Origin: Rhodanobacter humi
GTDB lineage: Bacteria > Pseudomonadota > Gammaproteobacteria > Xanthomonadales > Rhodanobacteraceae
DNA: 64,000 nt
NCBI RefSeq assembly: GCF_041107455.1
Contig: NZ_JBGBPY010000001.1
Location: 3,534,001 to 3,598,000 of the forward strand
Direction: 5' to 3'
Of the stretch, positions 53,285 through 62,850 are shown in pieces (within the stretch, counting starts at the first letter, position 1; the number at the start of each line of letters is the position of its first letter). The translations under genes and the position numbers were made by a program. The notes beneath the pieces were generated by a model. It saw only the letters and a program-made list of their open reading frames with translations. It did no database searches and was not told the DNA's origin.

Positions 53285-54169
53285 ATGACACAGCCAGCCA
53301 CTGCGGGCGCCCGTTTCCGCGCCGCGCTTGCCGCCGAATCCCCGTTGCAGGTGATCGGCGCGATCACCGCCTACGCCGGCCTGATGGCCAAACGGGTGGG
53401 TTACCGGGCGCTGTACCTGTCCGGCGGCGGCGTGGCCGCCAATTCGCTGGGCATGCCGGACCTGGGCATCTCGACGATGGAAGACGTGCTCACCGACGCA
53501 CGCCGCATCGTCGACGCCACGGGCCTGCCGCTGCTGGTCGACATCGACACCGGTTGGGGCGGCGCGTTCAACATCGCGCGCACCATCCGCAACTTCGAGC
53601 GCATCGGCGTGGCCGCGGTGCACATCGAGGATCAGGTGGGCCAGAAGCGCTGCGGTCATCGCCCCGGCAAGGAAGTGGTGCCGAAGGAGGAGATGGTCGA
53701 TCGCGTGAAGGCCGCGGTGGACGCGCGTACCGATCCCGGCTTCGTGATCATGGCGCGCACCGACGCGGCAGCGGTGGAGGGCCTCGACGCGGCGATCGAG
53801 CGTGCGGTGGCCTACGTCGAGGCCGGCGCCGACATGATCTTCCCCGAGGCGATGAAGACGCTGGACGACTACCGCAGGTTCAAGGCGGCGGTGCAGGTGC
53901 CGATCCTGGCCAACCTCACCGAGTTCGGTTCCACCCCGTTCTTCACCACCGACGAGCTGCGTTCGGCCGACGTGGACATCGCGTTGTACTGCTGCGGCGC
54001 CTACCGCGCCATGAACAAGGCGGCGCTGGGCTTCTACGAGACGGTGCGCCGCGAGGGCACGCAGAAGCACATCATCGATCGCCTGCAGACGCGCGAGGAG
54101 CTGTACGACTTCCTGGGCTACCACGCCTACGAGGACAAGCTCGACGCGCTGTTTTCCAACAAGAGCTGA
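53285..54169 (+). CDS. prpB: 2-methylisocitrate lyase PrpB
   Basis: PrpB cleaves 2-methylisocitrate to succinate and pyruvate. The 294-residue protein has the isocitrate-lyase superfamily features [60 protein letters not shown] with the catalytic KRCGH, and [20 protein letters not shown]. It is followed by a palindromic repeat and then prpC in the same direction. The ATG at 53285 follows GACGGAGGCCAC. Confidence 0.96.
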
Positions 54170-54180
54170 CACGCGGTCGC

Positions 54181-54250
54181 TGTAGGAGCGCACCCTGTGC
54201 GCGATGACGCTTTTCGCGAAGAGCTTTCGCGCACAGGGTGCGCTCCTACA
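54181..54250. repeat. REP-like palindrome between prpB and prpC
   Basis: TGTAGGAGCGCACCCTGTGC and its complement flank a spacer of about 20 bp. The GTAGGAGCG ends match the mfd/mdh elements, while the inner arms match 15357-15517. Confidence 0.9.
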
Positions 54251-54299
54251 CGCTCCGTTTTCCGCCGTTTCGCAATCCCTGCACCCCAGGAGACACCCC

Positions 54300-55445
54300 A
54301 TGAGCGAGCAAGTCCTTCCCAAGGCCAAGAAATCGGTCGCCCTGTCCGGCGTGGCCGCCGGCAACACCGCGCTGTGTACGGTGGGCCGCAGCGGCAACGA
54401 CCTGCACTACCGCGGCTACGACATCCATGACCTGGCGGCGAAGGGCTGCTTCGAGGAAGTGGCGCATCTCCTGGTTTACGGCGTGTTGCCGAACTGGACC
54501 GAACTGCAGAATTACAAGGCCAGGCTGAAGCGCCTGCGCGGCCTGCCGGCGCCGGTGAAGAGCGCGCTGGAACTGCTGCCCGCCGCCACCCACCCGATGG
54601 ACGTGCTGCGCACCGGCTGCTCGGTGCTGGGTACCGTGCTGCCGGAGAAGGACGACCACAACGTCACCGGCGCCCGCGACATCGCCGACCGCCTGATGGC
54701 CAGCTTCGGCTCGATGCTGCTGTACTGGTACCACTTCAGCCACAACGGCAAGCGCGTCGAGACCGCGACCGACGACGACTCCATCGCCGCGCACTTCCTG
54801 CACGTGCTGCACGGCAGGAAGCCCAGCGAGCTGCACGCGAACGCGCTGGACAAGTCGCTGGTGCTGTACGCCGAGCACGAGTTCAACGCCAGCACCTTCA
54901 CCGCCCGTGTGATCGCCGGCACCGGTTCGGACATGTATTCGGCGCTCACCGGCGCGATCGGCGCGCTGCGCGGCCCCAAGCACGGCGGCGCGAACGAGGT
55001 GGCGATGGAGATCATCGCGCGCTACCGCAACGCGAACGACGCGGAAGCCGACATCCGCGCTCGCGTCGAGCGCAAGGAAATCATCATCGGCTTCGGCCAT
55101 CCGGTGTACACGGTGTCCGATCCGCGCAACGAGATCATCAAGGAGATCTCGCGCAAGCTGTGCACGGACGGCGGCAACCCGACCCTGTTCGAGGTTTCCG
55201 AGCGGATCGAGAAGGTGATGGGTGAGGTCAAGAAGATGTTTCCCAACCTCGATTGGTTCTCCGCCAGCGCATATCACATGATGGGCGTGCCGACCGCGAT
55301 GTTCACGCCGCTGTTCGTGATCGCGCGCACCTCCGGCTGGAGCGCGCACGTGATCGAGCAGCGCGAGGACGGCAAGATCATCCGCCCCAGCGCGAACTAC
55401 ACCGGCCCGGAAGACCGGGTCTACGTGCCGATCGACAAGCGCTGA
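54300..55445 (+). CDS. prpC: 2-methylcitrate synthase PrpC
   Basis: A citrate-synthase-family enzyme of 381 residues condensing propionyl-CoA with oxaloacetate. It has [20 protein letters not shown] and [15 protein letters not shown] near the N-terminus, where prpC-type enzymes start. The catalytic residues are in [20 protein letters not shown] (His), [13 protein letters not shown] (His) and the C-terminal Asp region, with [31 protein letters not shown] precedes the ATG at 54300. The repeat between it and prpB probably leaves them in one transcript. A strong terminator follows. Confidence 0.95.
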
Positions 55446-55468
55446 AGCGTCGGCAGTCCGAAACAGGG

Positions 55469-55492
55469 AGGGAGCCGCGAGGCTCCCTTTTT
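55469..55492 (+). terminator. Rho-independent terminator of prpC
   Basis: AGGGAGCC GCGA GGCTCCCT is a perfect 8-bp stem followed by TTTTC. Confidence 0.9.
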
Positions 55493-55953
55493 CGTGGGTG
55501 TGATGAGCGTTCGCGCTGCCGGCGCCTGCGCTCGTTACAGGTGTTGCAGATCTGATACAGGCCTCGACATCACGAATCCCTGGGCTCCGGAGCCTTGTTC
55601 TGCAGCATCGGAGGAGATGAGGCGGCAATCCCGCCCGATGCAACCTGTAACGCGGCTGGAACAGTGCATGCAGCGGCCTGATGCCACGTTGCCGATGCAA
55701 TGACCCCAACTGACTGATTTGCAGATGAATTATTCGCGCATGTCCGCTTGGCATTGCCCTTGCCAGTTCAGCTTGCTGCACACGCAAGACTAGGCGGGAT
55801 AGCCCAAGTCAACCAGGGGATTCCCGAGCACAACCGCAATCCGGCACAAGCCGGGAAGTGGCGGCGGTGTCTGGCGCTGCAGGCAACCGGTTCCGGCATC
55901 AGCCGGAATTGACGATGCAAGTCCTGATCGGGCTTTTCCAAGGAGAACGAACC
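55493..55953 (+). other. Long leader/regulatory region of the secretion cluster
   Basis: About 460 bp without a convincing gene. It holds GTTACAGG (55534-55541) and its exact complement CCTGTAAC (55644-55651), a further GATACAGG at about 55553, a sigma-54-like box at 55748, and a strong AAGGAGAACG ribosome binding site just before the first gene. The TACAGG motifs could be activator sites. Confidence 0.5.
55748..55764 (+). promoter_or_regulatory. Sigma-54-like promoter of the secretion cluster
   Basis: TTGGCATTGCCCTTGCC has GG and GC spaced 12 bp apart, as in the -24/-12 consensus TGGCAC-N5-TTGC. A transcript from here would carry a leader of about 180 bases before the first gene of the cluster. 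Confidence 0.5.
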
Positions 55954-56856
55954 ATGCGCAAGACACTCATCGCTACCGCTATCTGCCTGGGCCTGGGTTT
56001 CAGCATCTCGGCCATGGCCGACCACAACCATCAGACCAACGCCGGCGGCACCAACGCCCAGGACAGCTCGGCGGCGCTGCAGAACGTGGCCAACCAGAAC
56101 AACTCCAACAACACCAGCAATTCGAACAACACCAGCAGTTCCAACAACACCACGACCACGCTCAACACCGTTGTGGCGAACAGCGTGCTCAATGGTTCGG
56201 TATCGGGCGTCGGCGTCTCCGGCATCGGCAACAGCGCGATGAACTCGGGCAACGCCAATGGCGGTCACGGCGGGCTCGGCTTGGGCGTGGGTGCCACCTC
56301 TGCCCCGGGCGGCAACGGCGGCGATGCGCACAGCCATAGCGGTGACGGCGGAGCGGGGCTGGGCCTGAGCGCCGCGGTAGGCGGCTCCAACTCGGCTGAT
56401 GGCGGCAACAGCAACGGCAGCGCTGGCGACGGCACGAACGGCAGTCTGGCGGCGAACGGTGGTCACCATGGTTCGGGCAATGGTGGCAACGGTGGTAACA
56501 ACTCGAGTTCGGCCGGTGGCGGCAACGGCTCATGGGCAGGCGGCGCAGGCGGCAGCGGCTCCGCCGACGCGAGCAGCGGCTCGGGCTCGGGCACGGGCGG
56601 CAACAGCGGCGATAGCGCCAGCATGGGCGGCGCGGGCGGCGCCGGTGGCACGGGCGGCTCGGGCATGGGCGCGGGCGGCATGGGCGGCGCTGGCGGGACG
56701 GCCGCGGCGGATGCCGGCAGTTTCGACATGTCCAACCAGATGACCGGTACGGCCGTGGGCGCAGCCGGCATCGCAGTGATCGCGCAGAACAGCGGCGCGG
56801 CGGCACTGGTGCAGCAGAGCGTGAATGTGCAGGCCAACCTCACGGTCGGCCACTGA
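55954..56856 (+). CDS. Secreted Gly/Ser/Asn-rich low-complexity protein (candidate fibre subunit)
   Basis: A 300-residue exported protein I do not recognise as a named family. A Sec signal (TLIATAICLGLGFSISAMA) is followed by an Asn/Thr/Ser-rich stretch (NQNNSNNTSNSNN..., residues about 45-70). Then come TLNTVVANSVLNGSVSGVGV, a long Gly/Ser/Ala-rich core (about residues 95-260) with GGNGG, GGAGG and GGTGGSG runs, and a hydrophobic C-terminus VIAQNSGAAALVQQSVNVQA. The mature protein has no Cys. Composition suits an extended or amyloid-like fibre, but it lacks the FapB/FapC CxxC. First gene of the cluster, with an excellent ribosome binding site. Confidence 0.8.
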   Translation: MRKTLIATAICLGLGFSISAMADHNHQTNAGGTNAQDSSAALQNVANQNNSNNTSNSNNTSSSNNTTTTLNTVVANSVLNGSVSGVGVSGIGNSAMNSGNANGGHGGLGLGVGATSAPGGNGGDAHSHSGDGGAGLGLSAAVGGSNSADGGNSNGSAGDGTNGSLAANGGHHGSGNGGNGGNNSSSAGGGNGSWAGGAGGSGSADASSGSGSGTGGNSGDSASMGGAGGAGGTGGSGMGAGGMGGAGGTAAADAGSFDMSNQMTGTAVGAAGIAVIAQNSGAAALVQQSVNVQANLTVGH

Positions 56857-57012
56857 TGGAACCTCCCGCGGTGGGGCGCGAACGCCCCACCGCGGCTTTG
56901 CGGCGACTGCGTGCCACGAGGGAGCCGGAAGTGGGCAGCCATGCATGGGCAGCCGTGCGTGACACCCGACGGCGTCCTCCGCGACAGGCAGTCGCGGCGG
57001 GAGTACAGAATC

Positions 57013-57420
57013 ATGCGAACGTTCCGATTCGGTTGCGGGTTCCTGCTGTTGCTTTGCGTCGCAAGTCTTGATGCGCTGGCGACGGACGCGCCGCGGTCTG
57101 CCGTGCCGGCGCCCCGGACGGGCGTCACGACAGCGGTCGTGGCGGCACCGGCGCAGTCCGCCTATGTCGACGGCCTGGGCGCCAGCGTCAGCGGTTCCAC
57201 CCTGGCGCGGTCGCGCGGCGGCATCGAGACGACCACGGAGACCATGACGCTCAACGGCTCGGTGGACCACAACACCGATAACCATGTGGTGACCGGATCC
57301 AACCTGATCGACGGTGGCGCGTTCAGTGGTGCGGTCGGCTTGCCGACGGTGATCCAGAACACCGGCAACAACGTGCTGATCCAGACCGGCGTCATCGTCA
57401 ACGTGCAGTTCAAGCCATGA
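57013..57420 (+). CDS. Small secreted protein with double-glycine site and VIQN motif
   Basis: An unrecognised 135-residue exported protein. A Sec signal (RFGCGFLLLLCVASLDALA) precedes a linker with ASVSGSTLARSRGG, ending in Gly69-Gly70. This fits a bacteriocin-leader consensus (hydrophobic at -12, Ser -11, Leu -7, GG at -2/-1). The remaining 65 residues are Thr/Asn-rich (TMTLNGSVDHNTDNHVVTGS) and end in VIQNTGNNVLIQTGVIVNVQ. The ATG at 57013 has GGGAGTACAGAATC before it. The stop overlaps the start of the C39 peptidase gene by four bases, so the two are translationally coupled. Confidence 0.8.
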   Translation: MRTFRFGCGFLLLLCVASLDALATDAPRSAVPAPRTGVTTAVVAAPAQSAYVDGLGASVSGSTLARSRGGIETTTETMTLNGSVDHNTDNHVVTGSNLIDGGAFSGAVGLPTVIQNTGNNVLIQTGVIVNVQFKP

Positions 57421-58106
57421 GCAGGATGCTCCCGGCGCTTGCGATCGTGCTGGCGCTGGCCTGGCCCGGCGGCCTACTGGCCGGATCGGTGGAGATCAAC
57501 GGCGGTACGGGCTCGACCTACACGCTGCATCTGACCACCTTCAAGGAAGCGAAATTCAGGAACACCGTCCGGCAGAAGTACGACTTCAGTTGCGGCTCCG
57601 CCGCCGTGGCCACCTTGCTGACCTACCAGTACGGCTATCCGGTCACCGAGCAGGCGGCATTCGCGCAGATGTACGCACACGGCGACCGCGTCAGGATCAA
57701 CAAGGAAGGCTTCTCCCTGCTGGACATCAAGAGCTACCTGCAGACGCTCGGTTTCGAGGCCGACGGCTTCCGCCTGCCGCTGGACAAGCTCGCCCAGGAG
57801 CACCTGCCGGCGATCGTGCTGATCGTGGTGAATCGCTACCACCATTTCGTGGTCGTCAAGGGCCTGCTGGACGGTCGCGTGCTGGTGGGCGATCCCGCCT
57901 TGGGCACGCGCTCGATCCCGCGCGAACGGTTCGAAAAAATGTGGCAGGACAAGTTGCTGTTCGTGATTCACAACCGGCGCGATGAAGCGCACTTCAACCT
58001 GGTCAGCGACTGGCGCGCGGCGCCTCTTGCGCCGCTGGGCATGGGCATCGACCGACGCCTGATGGATTACACCACCATGCCGAAGTTCGGGCCCGGGCAG
58101 TACTGA
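57417..58106 (+). CDS. Exported C39-family cysteine peptidase (FapD-like)
   Basis: A 229-residue papain-like peptidase with a Sec signal (LPALAIVLALAWPGGLLAG) and a single C39 domain, not fused to an ABC transporter. The catalytic Cys59 is in QKYDFSCGSAAVATLLTY, His142/143 in NRYHHFVVVKG, and Asp159 in VGDPALG. This is the layout of FapD, the peptidase of the Pseudomonas Fap functional amyloid operon. C39 domains cleave after Gly-Gly; the genes on both sides encode proteins with such a site, so they are candidate substrates. It should act in the periplasm. Confidence 0.88.
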   Translation: MSRMLPALAIVLALAWPGGLLAGSVEINGGTGSTYTLHLTTFKEAKFRNTVRQKYDFSCGSAAVATLLTYQYGYPVTEQAAFAQMYAHGDRVRINKEGFSLLDIKSYLQTLGFEADGFRLPLDKLAQEHLPAIVLIVVNRYHHFVVVKGLLDGRVLVGDPALGTRSIPRERFEKMWQDKLLFVIHNRRDEAHFNLVSDWRAAPLAPLGMGIDRRLMDYTTMPKFGPGQY

Positions 58107-58116
58107 GGTGATGGTG

Positions 58117-58935
58117 ATGCAAAGCAAGAATCCAAAATCGAGAACGGGTCTGCGAGTCGTATTGCCCCTGTGCCTGCTCGGCAGCGCAGGCGTCGCCCAT
58201 GCCATGCCTGGAAGCGAGGCAGGCAATGCCCCCCAGCCACAACCATCAGCGGCGCCGTCGGCGGATCAGGCACAGGCCGATATCGCCGGCCTCGGGCAGC
58301 CGGTCAGTGACGCCAACCTCGACCATGCGCGTGGCGGTTTCGATCTCGGCGGCGGCTTGGTGGCCTCGTTCGGCCTGCAGGAGGAGACCTACATCAACGG
58401 CCTCCTGGTGATGTCCACGAGCATCAATATCCCGGACATCAGCAAGATCACGCAGCAACAGGCCGCCGCTCTGGCATCGACGCTCGACGGCTTGAACCTC
58501 GTGCAGAACGGACCGGGCAACGGAGCCGTTCCCGGCAAGGCAGCCACCGCGCCTCATGCCGGTTCGATCGCCCAGTCATCCAGCCCTCCGGCGGCAGTGG
58601 CCGGATCGAACGCATCGAACGGCGCCGTCGTCGCGCATGTTCCGAATCAGCCGAGCACCATCACGCCCGCCATGGATGCGCCAGCGGAAGCGGTTGGCGT
58701 GCCCGCGCCCGGTGCCGGCGGCGTGGGTTCGGCAGCCACCCGGAACAACCCGGGCGTCTCAGCCGCGCTCACGCAGGGCGGGGGACTGGCACAAGTCATT
58801 CAGAACACCTTGAACAATCAATCCATCCAGACCCTGACCACGCTCAACGTCTCGGTGAACACGTTGCAGGCGCTGCGCCAGATGAATCTGCAGAGCACCT
58901 TGCAGTCGGCGCAAATGCTCTCGTTCGGGCATTGA
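58117..58935 (+). CDS. Secreted protein with double-glycine site and VIQN motif
   Basis: An unrecognised exported protein of 272 residues. A Sec signal (LRVVLPLCLLGSAGVAHA) is followed by QPVSDANLDHARGG, ending in Gly73-Gly74. This fits the double-glycine leader pattern (Val -12, Ser -11, Leu -7). FDLGGGLVASFGLQEETYIN, an Ala/Pro-rich middle and VIQNTLNNQSIQTLTTLNVS follow. The C-terminal NLQSTLQSAQMLSFGH is amphipathic. Several starts are possible (GTG 58108, ATG 58111, ATG 58117); 58117 best fits the GAGGTG ribosome binding site. It is 10 bp after the C39 gene and upstream of the barrel gene. Confidence 0.78.
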   Translation: MQSKNPKSRTGLRVVLPLCLLGSAGVAHAMPGSEAGNAPQPQPSAAPSADQAQADIAGLGQPVSDANLDHARGGFDLGGGLVASFGLQEETYINGLLVMSTSINIPDISKITQQQAAALASTLDGLNLVQNGPGNGAVPGKAATAPHAGSIAQSSSPPAAVAGSNASNGAVVAHVPNQPSTITPAMDAPAEAVGVPAPGAGGVGSAATRNNPGVSAALTQGGGLAQVIQNTLNNQSIQTLTTLNVSVNTLQALRQMNLQSTLQSAQMLSFGH

Positions 58936-59009
58936 GTGTCTTGCGAACGTCGCCTGCGCATGCCTGATGGTGCCGAAGTCTCCCAAGATCGGTTAGACAA
59001 GGAGCTGAA

Positions 59010-60422
59010 ATGGAACGCAAAAGTCGGCAATGGGCATGCGCGGCCAGTTGCGCCGGGTTGATGGCGTTCGGTGGCTGGGCAAGCGCGCAGGAAGCATCGC
59101 CGCCCGCGTCGCCCGCCGAGGCGGGACATGGGTCGTCCGCCGACGCAGGGCATGACGATCCATCGTCTCCCGCGACGGTGCGCCAGCGCTTGCAGCAGCA
59201 GGATGCGGAGATCGACGCGATGCGCCACCAGATCGATGCGCAGATGGCGCAGCTCAAGCTGATGCGCCAGCAGCTGGCCCAGCAAGCGGCCGACTATGCA
59301 TCGCTGCGTCATGCGGTCGGCATGCGCGAGCTGGAACAACAGCGTGGCGGCAACCTGCAAACGACAGGGGTGAATTCGCCGACGCAGCCCATGCCGGTCG
59401 CATCCGCCGTGCAAACGGTGACGGCCGCCCACCCGCAGGAGGTCGGCCAGGCGCCGCCGAAGGACGCCCGTCCGCCCGAGGTGGCCCCCATCACCAATCA
59501 GCCCGGCGTGCTGACGCCGAGGCACAGCTTCGTGCTGGAGCCCTCGTACCAGTTCGGCTACTCCGCCGCCAACCAGGTCGATCTGGTGGGCTACACCATC
59601 ATCCCGGCCATCCTGATCGGCCTGATAGACATCCGCACGGTGCGCACCACCAGCCATACCGTGACGCTCACCGGGCGCTATGGCCTCACCAATCGCCTCG
59701 AACTGGAGGTGCGCGTGCCCTATGTCTGGGAGGGCAGCAACATCGTCAGCCGCGAAGTGTTCACCGGCACGGCGACGAACAACGTGCTGAACTCCAGCGG
59801 CAGCGGCATCGGCGACATCGAGGCCACCGCGCGCTACCAGTTCAACGACGGCGGCGCGGACAAGCCGTATTACATCGGCTGGCTCCGTTTCAAATCCCGT
59901 ACGGGCCAGGATCCCTTCGACGTGCGCACCGACTGCCAGACGCGCTGTATCGAGAATGTCACCGGCACGGGCCTGCCGCTGGAGTTGCCGACCGGCTCGG
60001 GCTTCTATTCCCTGCAGCCCGGACTCACCTGGCTGCTGCCGTCCGATCCCGTGGTGATCTTCGGCAACCTCAGCTACATGTACAACTTCGAACGGCACAA
60101 CGTGTCCGAGAACCTCGTGGTCGGCAAGCAGTTCATCGGCAACGTGAAGGTGGGCAATGTCGCCGATGCCAGCATCGGCGTCGGTTTCGCGATGAACGAC
60201 AAGGTGTCGTTGAGCCTCGGTTACGACCAGAGCTTCATCGGCGTGACTCGCGAGGCTGGCACCAAGGTGCCAGGTTCGACCAAGATCTGGCTGGGCTCGC
60301 TGCTGGTGGGCGGCTCCTATCGCATCAACCCCAAGCGGACCTTGAACTTCACGCTGGGCGTCGGCGTGACCCGCGATACGCCCGACGTGCTGATGACGGT
60401 GCGCATGCCGATGGCGTTCTGA
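59010..60422 (+). CDS. FapF-like outer-membrane transporter: coiled coil plus beta-barrel
   Basis: A 470-residue exported protein. A Sec signal (residues 1-27, ending ASA) precedes a coiled coil at residues about 57-110 (RQRLQQQDAEIDAMRHQIDA...). A Pro/Val-rich linker follows, then a beta-barrel of about 260 residues with SFVLEPSYQFGYSAANQVDL, HTVTLTGRYGLTNRLELEVR and LNFTLGVGVTRDTPDV, ending MPMAF with a C-terminal Phe. FapF of Pseudomonas has this architecture: a trimeric periplasmic coiled coil gating a barrel that secretes amyloid subunits. It is the last gene of the cluster. An AAGGAGCTGAA ribosome binding site precedes the ATG. Confidence 0.85.
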   Translation: MERKSRQWACAASCAGLMAFGGWASAQEASPPASPAEAGHGSSADAGHDDPSSPATVRQRLQQQDAEIDAMRHQIDAQMAQLKLMRQQLAQQAADYASLRHAVGMRELEQQRGGNLQTTGVNSPTQPMPVASAVQTVTAAHPQEVGQAPPKDARPPEVAPITNQPGVLTPRHSFVLEPSYQFGYSAANQVDLVGYTIIPAILIGLIDIRTVRTTSHTVTLTGRYGLTNRLELEVRVPYVWEGSNIVSREVFTGTATNNVLNSSGSGIGDIEATARYQFNDGGADKPYYIGWLRFKSRTGQDPFDVRTDCQTRCIENVTGTGLPLELPTGSGFYSLQPGLTWLLPSDPVVIFGNLSYMYNFERHNVSENLVVGKQFIGNVKVGNVADASIGVGFAMNDKVSLSLGYDQSFIGVTREAGTKVPGSTKIWLGSLLVGGSYRINPKRTLNFTLGVGVTRDTPDVLMTVRMPMAF

Positions 60423-60438
60423 GGGGATTGCCGGCCGG

Positions 60439-61113
60439 TCAGGTTGCTGCGGGTCGACACCGACGCCGCCGCAGCCAACCGCCGCCGCAGACCCCGACCA
60501 CCAGCGTCGCGTCGAGCAGGTATTTGACCCAGGCATGCGTCGCGAACCAGCCCGACCACAGGTGGTCGTGGGCAATCATGCGCGCCGCGGTCCAGGCGAT
60601 CGCGCCGGCGCCGAGGTAGACGATGACGGGGAAGCGCTCGATCAGCTTCAGGATCAGGGTCGAACCCCACACCACCAGCGGCACGCTGACGGCCAGGCCG
60701 AGCACCACCAGCAGCAGGTCGCCACGCGATGCGCCGGCGATCGCCAGCACGTTGTCCAGCCCCATCAGCGCGTCGGCGACGACGATGGTGCGCAGCGCGG
60801 CCCAGAAGCCGTCGGCGGCGGCGACGTCGTGCGATGCCTCGTCCTGCTTCAGCAGCTTCCAGGCGATCGGCAGCAGCAACAGGCCGCCGGCCAGCATCAG
60901 GCCCGGCAACTCCAGCAGCCAGACCACCACGGCGGTGAGCGCGATGCGCACGGCGACGGCGCCGAAGCTGCCCCAGAACACGGCCTTCTTCTGCAGCGGC
61001 GGAGGCAGCTTGCGCGCGGCCAGCGCGATCACGATGGCGTTGTCGCCGGCCAGCACCAGGTCGAGCAGGATGATGGTGGACAGGCCGGAGAGAAAGCTGG
61101 CTGGGAATTCCAT
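60439..61113 (-). CDS. TerC-family membrane protein (YjbE/Alx-like), probable Mn2+ exporter
   Basis: A 224-residue integral membrane protein with about seven helices. The TerC signature is complete: IILLDLVLAGDNAIVIALAA with DNA, then KKAVFWGSFGAVAVRI and VVADALMGLDNVLAIAGASR with the second DN. TerC proteins next to a yybP-ykoY riboswitch (see 61168-61290) are manganese exporters in other bacteria. The ATG at 61113 begins MEFPASFLSGLSTIILLDL, the usual N-terminus; a further ATG 24 bases upstream is unlikely. It is convergent with the FapF-like gene. Confidence 0.93.
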   Translation of the reverse strand: MEFPASFLSGLSTIILLDLVLAGDNAIVIALAARKLPPPLQKKAVFWGSFGAVAVRIALTAVVVWLLELPGLMLAGGLLLLPIAWKLLKQDEASHDVAAADGFWAALRTIVVADALMGLDNVLAIAGASRGDLLLVVLGLAVSVPLVVWGSTLILKLIERFPVIVYLGAGAIAWTAARMIAHDHLWSGWFATHAWVKYLLDATLVVGVCGGGWLRRRRCRPAAT

Positions 61114-61167
61114 GCGAGGGTCCGACGCGCCGAGCACATGCAGCGACGACGGACGCGCGCAGGACCG

Positions 61168-61290
61168 TCGTCACCGCAAAAGTCTCGTTCGCGACATCGG
61201 CCGCCGCGGTGTCCGGAGCGAGGCATCGCTCGTGATGACGAACACCGCACGGATGCATGACCGCATCCGGAACTACTCCCCTTTGGGTGG
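61168..61290 (-). ncRNA. yybP-ykoY manganese riboswitch upstream of terC
   Basis: On the minus strand the leader reads AAAGGGGAGTAG..., then a P2-like GC stem (GGATGCGGTCATGCATCC), a central CGTCATCACG and finally GAACGAGACTTTTGCGGTG, about 55 bp before the terC start. The GGGGAGTAG and GAGACTTTTGC ends with a central GTCA are hallmarks of the yybP-ykoY Mn2+-sensing aptamer. It should increase terC expression when Mn2+ is high. Exact boundaries are approximate. Confidence 0.82.
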
Positions 61291-61398
61291 TAGTCCGGCC
61301 ATTTTCGTGGCGGCCGGGGCAGGGGTCAAGCGCGCTGCGCTCCTGCCGGTGACGTGCGCCGGATACAATGGGCGTTTCTCCTCGCCGCGAGAACCGTC

Positions 61399-62850
61399 AT
61401 GAGCGCCCACGACATCCGTTCCGCCGTCCGCCCCGATCCCGACCAGCCGATGGTCGACATCGCCGACTACGTGGCCGACTGCCGGATCGAATCGAAGGAG
61501 GCCTACGACACCGCTCGCTACATGCTGCTGGACTCGCTGGCCACCGCGATGATGGCGATGAAGTTCCCCGAGTGCGTGAAGCACCTCGGGCCGCTGGTAC
61601 CGGGCGCCACGTTGCCGGGCGGCGCGCGCGTGCCGGGCACCAGCCACGAGCTGGACCCGGCGCAGGCCGCGTTCGCGATCGGCACGCAGATCCGCTGGCT
61701 GGACTTCAACGACACCTGGCTGGCGGCCGAGTGGGGTCATCCGTCGGACAACCTCGGCGCCATTCTCGCCGTGGCCGACTGGCTGGGTCGCAAGGCCGAG
61801 CGCGAGGGCGGCCGGGCGCTGACCGTGCGCGACGTGCTGGGCTACGCGATCAAGGCGCACGAGATCCAGGGCTGCTACGCGCTGAGGAACAGCTTCAACC
61901 GCGTCGGCCAGGACCACGTGATCCTGGTACGGCTGGCTTCCACCGCGGTGGCCACGCACATGCTGGGCGGCGACAAGGAGCAGATCGTCACCGCCGTGTC
62001 GCACAGCTGGATCGACAACGGCGCGCTGCGCGCCTACCGCCACGCGCCGAACACCGGGCCGCGCAAGAGCTGGGCCGCGGGTGACGCCTGCCGCCGCGCC
62101 GTCACCCATGCGATCAACGCGGTGTACCGCGGCGTAGTCGGTTATCCGTCGGCGCTGTCGGCGAAGACCTGGGGCTATTACGACGTGGCCTTCAAGGGCA
62201 AGCCGTTCGAGTTCGAGCGCCCGTTCGGCAGTTACGTGATGGAGAACGTGCTGTTCAAGATCAGCTTCCCGGCCGAGTTCCACGCGCAGACCGCGGTGGA
62301 ATGCGCGATGCAGCTGCACGGCCAGGTCGCCGGCAAGCTGGACCAGATCGAAAAGGTGGCGATCGAGACCCAGGAAGCCGGTTGCCGCATCATCGACAAG
62401 ACCGGCCCGCTGGCCAACTACGCCGATCGCGACCACTGCATCCAGTACATGGTGGCGTTGCCGCTGATCTTCGGCCGCCTCACCGCGGACGACTACAACG
62501 ACGACGTGGCCGCCGATCCGCGCATCGACGCGCTGCGCGAGAAGATGACGGTGAGCGAGAACCCGCAGTTCACCCGGGACTACTTCGACCCCGACAAGCG
62601 CTACATCGGCAATTCGGTGCAGGTGTTCTTCAAGGACGGCAGCAGCACCGGGAAGGTGTCCATCGACTATCCGATCGGCCACCGCAAACGCCGCGCCGAG
62701 GGCATCCCGGTGCTGCTGAAGAAATTCGAGGCGGCCATGCGCAGCCATCTGCCGGCGCACAAGGTCAGGGCGATCCTCGAAGCCAGCCGCGATCCGGCGC
62801 AACTGGACGCGATGCCGATCCAGCAGTTCCTCGGCTTGTTCACGCTCTGA
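61399..62850 (+). CDS. prpD: 2-methylcitrate dehydratase PrpD
   Basis: PrpD dehydrates 2-methylcitrate toward 2-methylaconitate in propionate breakdown. The 483-residue MmgE/PrpD-family protein has DIADYVADCRIESKEAYDTA, a RWLDFNDTWLAAEWGHPSDN active-site stretch, SWIDNGALRAYRHAPNTGPR and KSWAAGDACRRAVTHAINAV. These are hallmark PrpD sequences. It stands apart from prpE, prpB and prpC, between terC and an OmpA gene, with no cis-encoded aconitase or AcnD in the window. The ATG at 61399 follows CGCGAGAACCGTC. Confidence 0.95.
   Translation: MSAHDIRSAVRPDPDQPMVDIADYVADCRIESKEAYDTARYMLLDSLATAMMAMKFPECVKHLGPLVPGATLPGGARVPGTSHELDPAQAAFAIGTQIRWLDFNDTWLAAEWGHPSDNLGAILAVADWLGRKAEREGGRALTVRDVLGYAIKAHEIQGCYALRNSFNRVGQDHVILVRLASTAVATHMLGGDKEQIVTAVSHSWIDNGALRAYRHAPNTGPRKSWAAGDACRRAVTHAINAVYRGVVGYPSALSAKTWGYYDVAFKGKPFEFERPFGSYVMENVLFKISFPAEFHAQTAVECAMQLHGQVAGKLDQIEKVAIETQEAGCRIIDKTGPLANYADRDHCIQYMVALPLIFGRLTADDYNDDVAADPRIDALREKMTVSENPQFTRDYFDPDKRYIGNSVQVFFKDGSSTGKVSIDYPIGHRKRRAEGIPVLLKKFEAAMRSHLPAHKVRAILEASRDPAQLDAMPIQQFLGLFTL

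Follow-up and report, generated by a model that had tools for sequence, protein, structure and literature searches.

A Fap-related gene cluster of Rhodanobacter humi with a predicted second, double-glycine-type leader on two Sec-exported proteins

The window analyzed here, a 64,000-nucleotide stretch of the genome of Rhodanobacter humi (assembly GCF_041107455.1, contig NZ_JBGBPY010000001.1, positions 3,534,001 to 3,598,000 of the forward strand; coordinates below count from its first letter), contains a plus-strand cluster of five adjacent genes in the order A-B-C-D-E (55954-60422). They encode three Sec-exported proteins (A, B and D), an exported C39 peptidase (C) and a coiled-coil outer-membrane barrel (E), in the order and on the strand given by an earlier annotation of this DNA (the original prediction), which had set the start of the cluster at 55748, about 200 bp too early with respect to the first base of gene A (55954). 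Judged by their sequences, B and D have a Sec signal followed by another leader, of the double-glycine type, the kind that is cut by C39 peptidases. The cluster as a whole probably represents a Sec-dependent, two-step secretion system of the FapD/FapF kind.

The leaders of both window proteins combine Val at -12, Leu at -7 and Gly-Gly before the predicted cut, in agreement with the spacing rule of C39 substrates. ComA recognises Leu(-12)-X3-Glu(-8)-Leu(-7) ahead of the double Gly, and in the LahT150 complex the leader residues -4, -7 and -12 occupy a hydrophobic groove (PMC6363468). Neither the leaders of B and D nor the likeness of D to FapE figured in the original prediction. Relatives were compared in a set of 182 loci, in which the window is counted twice (as itself and as L001) and some genomes are likewise present in duplicate; leader counts refer to distinct sequences. 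A hydrophobic residue at -7 together with Gly-Gly was found in 103 of 104 B proteins and in all 109 D proteins, the D sites reading RGG in 107 cases and CGG in two, which were excluded from the position table. Among the tabulated sites Leu occupied -7 in 97/103 B and 107/107 D, and Val occupied -12 in 74/103 B and 95/107 D; at -4, Met, Leu, Val and Ile were commonest (in B also Tyr). An alignment of 42 B proteins, P0002 of the window and 41 hand-picked out of 72 distinct ones, had 13 invariant columns. Three of these are L64, G69 and G70, that is Leu -7 and both glycines, and six of the other ten fall in the IQN..LIQ module further on. When the open reading frames (ORFs) of loci L062-L181 were scanned with the strict pattern [LIVM]x4[LM]xx[LIVMA]xGG, it was present in 94/120 D and 70/118 B, compared to 5/118 A, 7/120 E, 1/120 C and 64/3,666 other ORFs. 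The pattern RG[GRK], scanned over all loci, occurred in 0/120 A and 0/163 E; the 58 other ORFs that contained it were by eye mostly FapE or D copies in overlapping loci. No such leader was visible in gene A of the window. A B-like protein of a distant relative (L259, 2149-2595) reads ..SLDELGDNRAK.. without Gly-Gly and keeps the C-terminal Q/N module.

The peptidase C passed the Pfam Peptidase_C39 model (82.7 bits, cut-off 22) and matched the NCBIfam models FapD (4.1e-38, 130.9 bits) and FilB (2.8e-38, 131.9 bits) without reaching their cut-offs of 330 and 475 bits. On these profile scores we regard C as a homologue of FapD and not as its equivalog. None of 197 genomes of its own family, Fap-like ones included, passed the FapD cut-off of 330 bits. 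Residues Q53, C59, H143 and D159, the presumed catalytic residues of a C39 enzyme, were invariant in 49 aligned peptidases (P0003 and those of 48 loci from the search by similarity to C). In the AlphaFold model of C the core (residues 61-200) had a predicted local distance difference test (pLDDT) score of about 90 or more, and the C-terminal tail was below 50, with its helix at about 45. The nearest solved folds were the peptidase domains of ComA, PCAT1 and LahT150; homology to the LahT150 enzyme was found by sequence (3e-9) and by Foldseek (1.3e-5). By eye, the tails of FapD-type C39 proteins (e.g., L223, 4258-4998) mimic the leader spacing, approximately P[VI]xDxELxDFGF, but lack a Gly pair that could be cut, and those of the window lineage (e.g., 57417-58106) show a weaker form, approximately G[IV]xRxxLxxI[TV][LM]P; of 107 distinct tails from the window lineage, 3 fitted a regular expression written for the FapD-like form. 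The tail of these C39 proteins may act as a built-in pseudo-substrate by which the peptidase is self-inhibited.

The barrel E matched the NCBIfam FapF model at 4.2e-48 (164.2 bits, below the cut-off of 700), the solved FapF at 2.5e-33 by phmmer and the NCBIfam FilC model at 1.3e-16 (60.9 bits, below the cut-off of 630). Here too, none of the 197 own-family genomes passed the FapF cut-off of 700 bits. Identity to a Pseudomonas-type FapF was 29% over 415 aligned columns, and the PTG motif was present in 97 of 104 distinct barrels of the window lineage.

The link between D and FapE was examined by profile comparison. A hidden Markov model (HMM) of D matched the ORF between fapD and fapF of Fap-like loci (6e-6, 9e-6 and weaker), with the RGGF of D placed on RGRF or RGRY, and in reverse a FapE HMM matched six D proteins (5e-5 to 9e-4). 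In hhalign, whole D aligned with 54 FapE proteins at 93.6% probability (E 2e-7) over a region spanning signal and leader. Three results count against these matches: Pseudomonas FapE was absent from the D HMM list (E up to 1), the 93.6% match includes the signal peptide, and A aligned with FapE at 76.4% over 29 columns, probably by the signal alone. Because of this A-FapE match the D-FapE comparison was repeated with the signals removed. It gave 64.6% (E 6e-5; reversed control 0.1%) for D against the 54 FapE and 55.9% (E 1e-4; reversed control 0.2%) for D against eight Pseudomonas-type FapE. Both alignments placed RGG on RGR, a register that is somewhat favored by the pieces having been cut relative to the leader site, and both shared an FG[LIV]-type stretch (SFG[LI]-like residues) about 15 residues further on. 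Once the signal is removed the alignment is confined to the leader and the next 15 or so residues; P0004 had no NCBIfam match. By this evidence D is probably related to FapE, and its link to Pseudomonas FapE rests on the signal-free hhalign and on the homology of FapE proteins among themselves, not on the D HMM.

The same leader spacing was found in FapE itself. From 138 HMM hits, 101 were complete and stood beside a C39 gene; these gave 62 distinct sequences, and removal of six window-type and two D-type proteins of other families left 54. All 54 had the leader, ending in RGR (49), RGK (4) or TGK (1). In a set of 62 sequences, seven RGG rows among them, Leu, Val or Ile prevailed at -12, Asp occupied -10 in 55 and Glu -8 in 45, and position -7 was Leu in 54 and Met in 7. 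A looser count found the motif in 62 of 89 distinct hits; the 27 without it were by eye mostly FapB or truncated ORFs, one of them (L200) being a FapE with TGK. In the FapE of L223, the RGR site comprises residues 39-41 and lies inside the FapE stretch discussed by Rouse et al. (PMC5557850).

These sites bear on the substrate of FapD. In Pseudomonas the active-site Cys of FapD is required for secretion and FapE is the only Fap protein with complete N-terminal processing (PMC5557850). The FapD substrate was described as yet to be determined in a 2018 review, which also reports fapD-fapF pairs in five further phyla (PMC6173800), and FapD is thought to process the FapE N-terminus according to a 2025 review (PMC12822426); alongside these statements on the substrate neither review gives a precise FapE cut site. 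For FapF, a double-glycine motif was pointed out in a review of 2016 (PMC5135000). In the literature searched, with supplements and subscription journals outside its scope, we found no description of the leader reported here. Leader-like stretches were also seen in FapA, where an ORF of L228 (5666-6142) reads PLGDADFARVSGG with SGG, two others (L223, 2444-2893; L225, 5600-6055) have SSG or ASG, and TSG occurs as well. Mass spectrometry found peptides throughout FapA (PMC5557850), and since these published peptides cover all of FapA we do not claim it as a second FapD substrate. In L231 (6585-8000) a FapF-type barrel ORF contains, around residue 92, the leader-like sequence LAPDDLVTMRGRY; it lies ahead of the barrel, in the region for which FapD cleavage has been proposed.

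For the Fil system, FilA ORFs were drawn from 30 FilA loci returned for a single family, that of genome G199; a C39 active-site motif was present within the examined stretch in 27 of them. All 35 ORFs picked by GQxG near the N-terminus had Met or Leu at -12 and Asp at -10, with Leu (34) or Met (1) at -7. The FilA case is weaker than that of FapE, because its -4 is mostly Ala or Thr and it rests on pattern counts without a profile comparison. FilA-type proteins of L246 and L245 matched the FilA model below its cut-off, and two of L246 matched DUF6160 above the cut-off. No match of A, B or D was obtained with the Fil models, FilA included, nor are they DUF6160 proteins. FilA-type genes form tandem arrays, five at G949:C7:45352-51008 and four at G961:C7:59539-63426, and ORFs of about 800-890 amino acids match the FilA N-terminus as well; several different exported proteins may therefore share the GQ leader. 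In the family of the Pseudomonas-type fap loci, L241, L245 and L253 have a Fil-type C39/barrel cluster, accompanied in L245 and L253 by a FilA-like protein with a leader ending GQ, and the genome of L241 (G254) has a canonical fap operon besides.

The genes stay together in relatives, as a survey of synteny suggested by the original prediction bore out. A search by similarity to C alone gave 160 loci; in the best 80 of these, B, D and E were each present in 80/80 and A in 79/80, and in the sole locus without A (L145) C lies only 462 bases from the contig end. The co-occurrence of A, B, D and E with C is not due to chance. These 80 loci come from Rhodanobacter, Dyella, Luteibacter, Frateuria, Fulvimonas, Ralstonia, Cupriavidus, Paraburkholderia, Pandoraea, Variovorax, Rhodoferax and others, with soil bacteria such as Rhodanobacter and Cupriavidus among them. 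A further 40 window-type loci were hand-picked from family genomes matching both the FapD and FapF models. In the set of 182 loci the order was ABCDE in 92, ABCD with E on the opposite strand in 12 (mainly Ralstonia) and ACBDE in eight, an artefact of choosing the longest ORF; five rarer orders account for ten loci together, and the remaining 60 are Fap-like loci fetched as comparison. The FapD model matched in 129/197 genomes of the own family, a figure that includes ABC-transporter domains, and the FapF model in 109/197. By a hand count that split barrel types by score, 39/197 have a Fap-like barrel (E 3e-109 or better), 81/197 a barrel in the score range of the window (E 6e-50 to 5e-38; one a fragment) and 12/197 both. 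A FapF match was found in 42 of 398 sampled genomes of the phylum. In its own 4.15-Mb genome C is the only C39 match (E <= 0.001). The C protein of Rhodanobacter sp. C06 is 96% identical to it, and a homologue of C in Cupriavidus metallidurans (plasmid collection) has no annotated gene under the match.

We propose the following route. All five proteins, whose N-termini have by eye a basic stretch, a hydrophobic core and a plausible cleavage site, would reach the periplasm by Sec. There, exported C would recognise the two leaders on B and D, whose residues -12 and -7 would dock in its groove, and would cut after the Gly-Gly that is present in both. Once trimmed, B and D would be competent to exit by way of the coiled-coil barrel E, as would the glycine-rich A along with them, and the common C-terminal Q/N module would then drive surface assembly into a fibre or matrix. 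It is quite likely that C cuts B and D, and secretion through E also seems favored, if somewhat less so. By the same logic FapD would cut FapE at R-G-R/K and, more tentatively, FilB would cut FilA at G-Q.

Several observations weigh against this scheme, in which cleavage, secretion and fibre formation are all deduced for this lineage from sequence. Position -4 in the window copies is Ser (B) or Ala (D), weaker than the usual Val, Leu or Ile, and the one exceptional B (L081) reads SGSG. The model of B had a mean pLDDT of 54.5 and was uninformative except for a short helix (61-67) just before Gly-Gly; such low confidence fits a protein that is disordered or depends on assembly, yet a shallow alignment would also produce it. 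Residues 49-55 of the C model, which precede the active Cys, scored below 50. On the Fap side, a leaderless FapE could have escaped the count, because the FapE HMM contains the leader and the pattern requires an aromatic residue after the site. Arg or Lys at -1 is unusual for a C39 enzyme and none of six lineage-specific peptidase positions is acidic in Fap to pair with it, which leaves the exact FapE cut unsure. A position matrix trained on B and D gave mixed results: FapE ranked first in 22/54 loci and in the top two in 37/54, but among six Pseudomonas-type fap loci it was missing from the top four in five (L223-L227), and two of six FilA-type proteins ranked first. Some B training windows of this matrix were chosen by a heuristic and themselves score badly, and the matrix was not relied upon.

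The C-terminal Q/N module is shared by A, B and D (hhalign D-B 97.2%, E 2.8e-11; A-B 91%, E 1.1e-6). The ends of A are conserved and its middle is variable, GG-rich and of low complexity in the 16 A sequences inspected; A gave only sub-threshold matches to family models and is likely the main fibre or matrix subunit. As originally predicted, P0001, P0002 and P0004 have no CxxC, and repeats of the FapB/FapC kind were not found at the sensitivity of hhalign, where B-FapB (11.8%), A-FapB (0.4%) and A-FapC (10.5%) were not significant. An amyloid fibre is a tentative proposal to which we give somewhat less than even chances. A doubtful but serious alternative is that no fibre forms, A being a secreted glycine-rich adhesin or matrix protein and B and D secretion helpers that stay at the cell surface. 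The conserved ends and low-complexity middle of A and the missing match to Fap repeats would suit it; the common module of A, B and D argues for a fibre instead, as does the single Q/N-X10-Q/N spacing kept (by eye) in B and D, which is described for curli and Fap repeats (PMC5135000).

In another, unlikely reading the conserved N-termini of B, D and FapE serve for targeting: they would dock the proteins to the barrel or to its coiled coil, and the peptidase would act elsewhere, for instance on the barrel linker. Rouse et al. suggest the FapE N-terminus as a FapF targeting sequence, with FapD cutting the FapF linker (PMC5557850), and the leader-like stretch in the barrel of L231 would fit, as would the odd residue at -1 of FapE. 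D and FapE also share residues past the site that would be unneeded for a mere cut site. The -12, -7, -2 spacing, however, is that of C39 substrates (PMC6363468), and by both patterns A and E mostly lack the stretch, even though passage through the barrel is expected of A as well.

Quick maximum-likelihood trees of 79 peptidases and 74 barrels (supports from the Shimodaira-Hasegawa-like approximate likelihood ratio test only, root not known, long branches flagged) separated three lineages. The Fap clade had supports of 98 (peptidases, 23 rows) and 99 (barrels, 23 rows) and the Fil-type clade 99 in both trees, with the window protein outside each of them; the window clade had 98 (36 rows, peptidases) and 99 (35 rows, barrels), surrounded by more distant relatives. 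L231 was split, its barrel lying inside the Fap clade and its peptidase outside. In both trees the window system is a lineage apart from Fap and Fil. A divergent true Fap operon, with A as FapC, B as FapB, D as FapE and an ordinary Fap amyloid, is quite improbable: C and E are homologous to FapD and FapF, D probably to FapE, and B aligns with part of FapB, though at the low probability given above, but C and E stand outside the Fap clade and score far below the Fap cut-offs (130.9 of 330; 164.2 of 700), a window-type and a Fap-like barrel coexist in 12 of 197 family genomes, A has no FapC match of note, and CxxC is absent. The original prediction had described a divergent Fap relative with replaced subunits. 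Its kinship with FapD and FapF is upheld by the profile searches, in which the barrel matched no unrelated porin family; the trees point to a separate lineage rather than to Fap with swapped subunits, and D, which had been taken for an unrelated replacement, aligns with FapE.

The features of the cluster are listed in Table 1. Genes B and C overlap by 4 bp, and a scan of 55440-60560 found no promoter or terminator. On one side (53285-55445) the cluster is flanked by genes that presumably encode methylisocitrate lyase and 2-methylcitrate synthase, and on the other (60439-62850) by presumed TerC-like and PrpD-like genes; if these names hold, a methylcitrate locus is apparently split by the secretion genes.

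Table 1. Genes and predicted leaders of the cluster, in window coordinates
Feature	Position	Strand	Description
Gene A	55954..56856	+	P0001, 300 aa (amino acids); Sec-exported, Gly/Asn/Ser-rich; C-terminal block AQNSGAAALVQQSVNVQANL
Gene B	57013..57420	+	P0002, 135 aa; Sec-exported; putative double-glycine-type leader, then a single Q/N-rich module (VIQNTGNNVLIQT..NV)
Leader of B	57178..57222	+	Positions -15 to -1, Arg-Gly-Gly end; predicted cut after Gly70
Gene C	57417..58106	+	P0003, 229 aa; exported stand-alone C39 cysteine peptidase
Gene D	58117..58935	+	P0004, 272 aa; Sec-exported, FapE-like; putative double-glycine-type leader; C-terminal module resembling that of B
Leader of D	58294..58338	+	Positions -15 to -1 (..PVSDANLDHARGG); predicted cut after Gly74
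Gene E	59010..60422	+	P0005, 470 aa; outer-membrane barrel of the FapF kind; N-terminal coiled-coil-like stretch (about residues 57-110, by eye), linker, PTG motif

Taken together, the three lineages suggest a general rule for outer-membrane secretion, to which we give an even chance: substrates of exported C39 peptidases would carry a Sec signal followed by a double-glycine-type leader, the last residue of which has drifted by lineage (Gly here, Arg/Lys in FapE, Gln in FilA), and each peptidase may also be inhibited by its own leader-like C-terminal tail. A rule of two leaders in series was not found in print in the literature searched. The canonical Gly-Gly is kept in the window lineage, and the degenerate sites of FapE and FilA could therefore be recognised by alignment. 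If true, the rule names the FapD substrate, the question of which is narrowed to a one-residue, testable site prediction, and groups the window system with Fap and Fil as a single class of secretion system. It would also offer a simple route to finding more substrates of exported C39 peptidases, and a further widespread lineage (Rhodanobacter, Dyella, Luteibacter, Ralstonia, Cupriavidus, Paraburkholderia, Pandoraea, Variovorax and others) is added to such systems.

Compared to known systems, the window cluster has in common with Fap of Pseudomonas the exported C39 peptidase (FapD), the coiled-coil barrel with PTG (FapF), a FapE-like protein and the leader spacing. It differs by the absence of a FapA match, of CxxC and of significant FapB/FapC repeats, by leaders ending in GG instead of the G-R/K of FapE, by the extra leader-bearing protein B ahead of the peptidase, with the order A-B-C39-D-barrel, and by its separate clade. 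With Fil, the 'putative pilus' of Acinetobacter and relatives (FilA, FilB, FilC), it shares the exported C39 peptidase, the barrel and, in FilA, a leader of similar spacing that ends in GQ, whereas it forms a separate clade in both trees, its A, B and D match no Fil model and the FilA-type proteins of L246 belong to DUF6160. Finally, the C39 domains of the ABC exporters ComA, PCAT1 and LahT have the catalytic residues, the fold and the leader spacing in common with C and its putative substrates; unlike them, C stands alone and is exported, and the leader follows a Sec signal and belongs to proteins that have to traverse the outer membrane.

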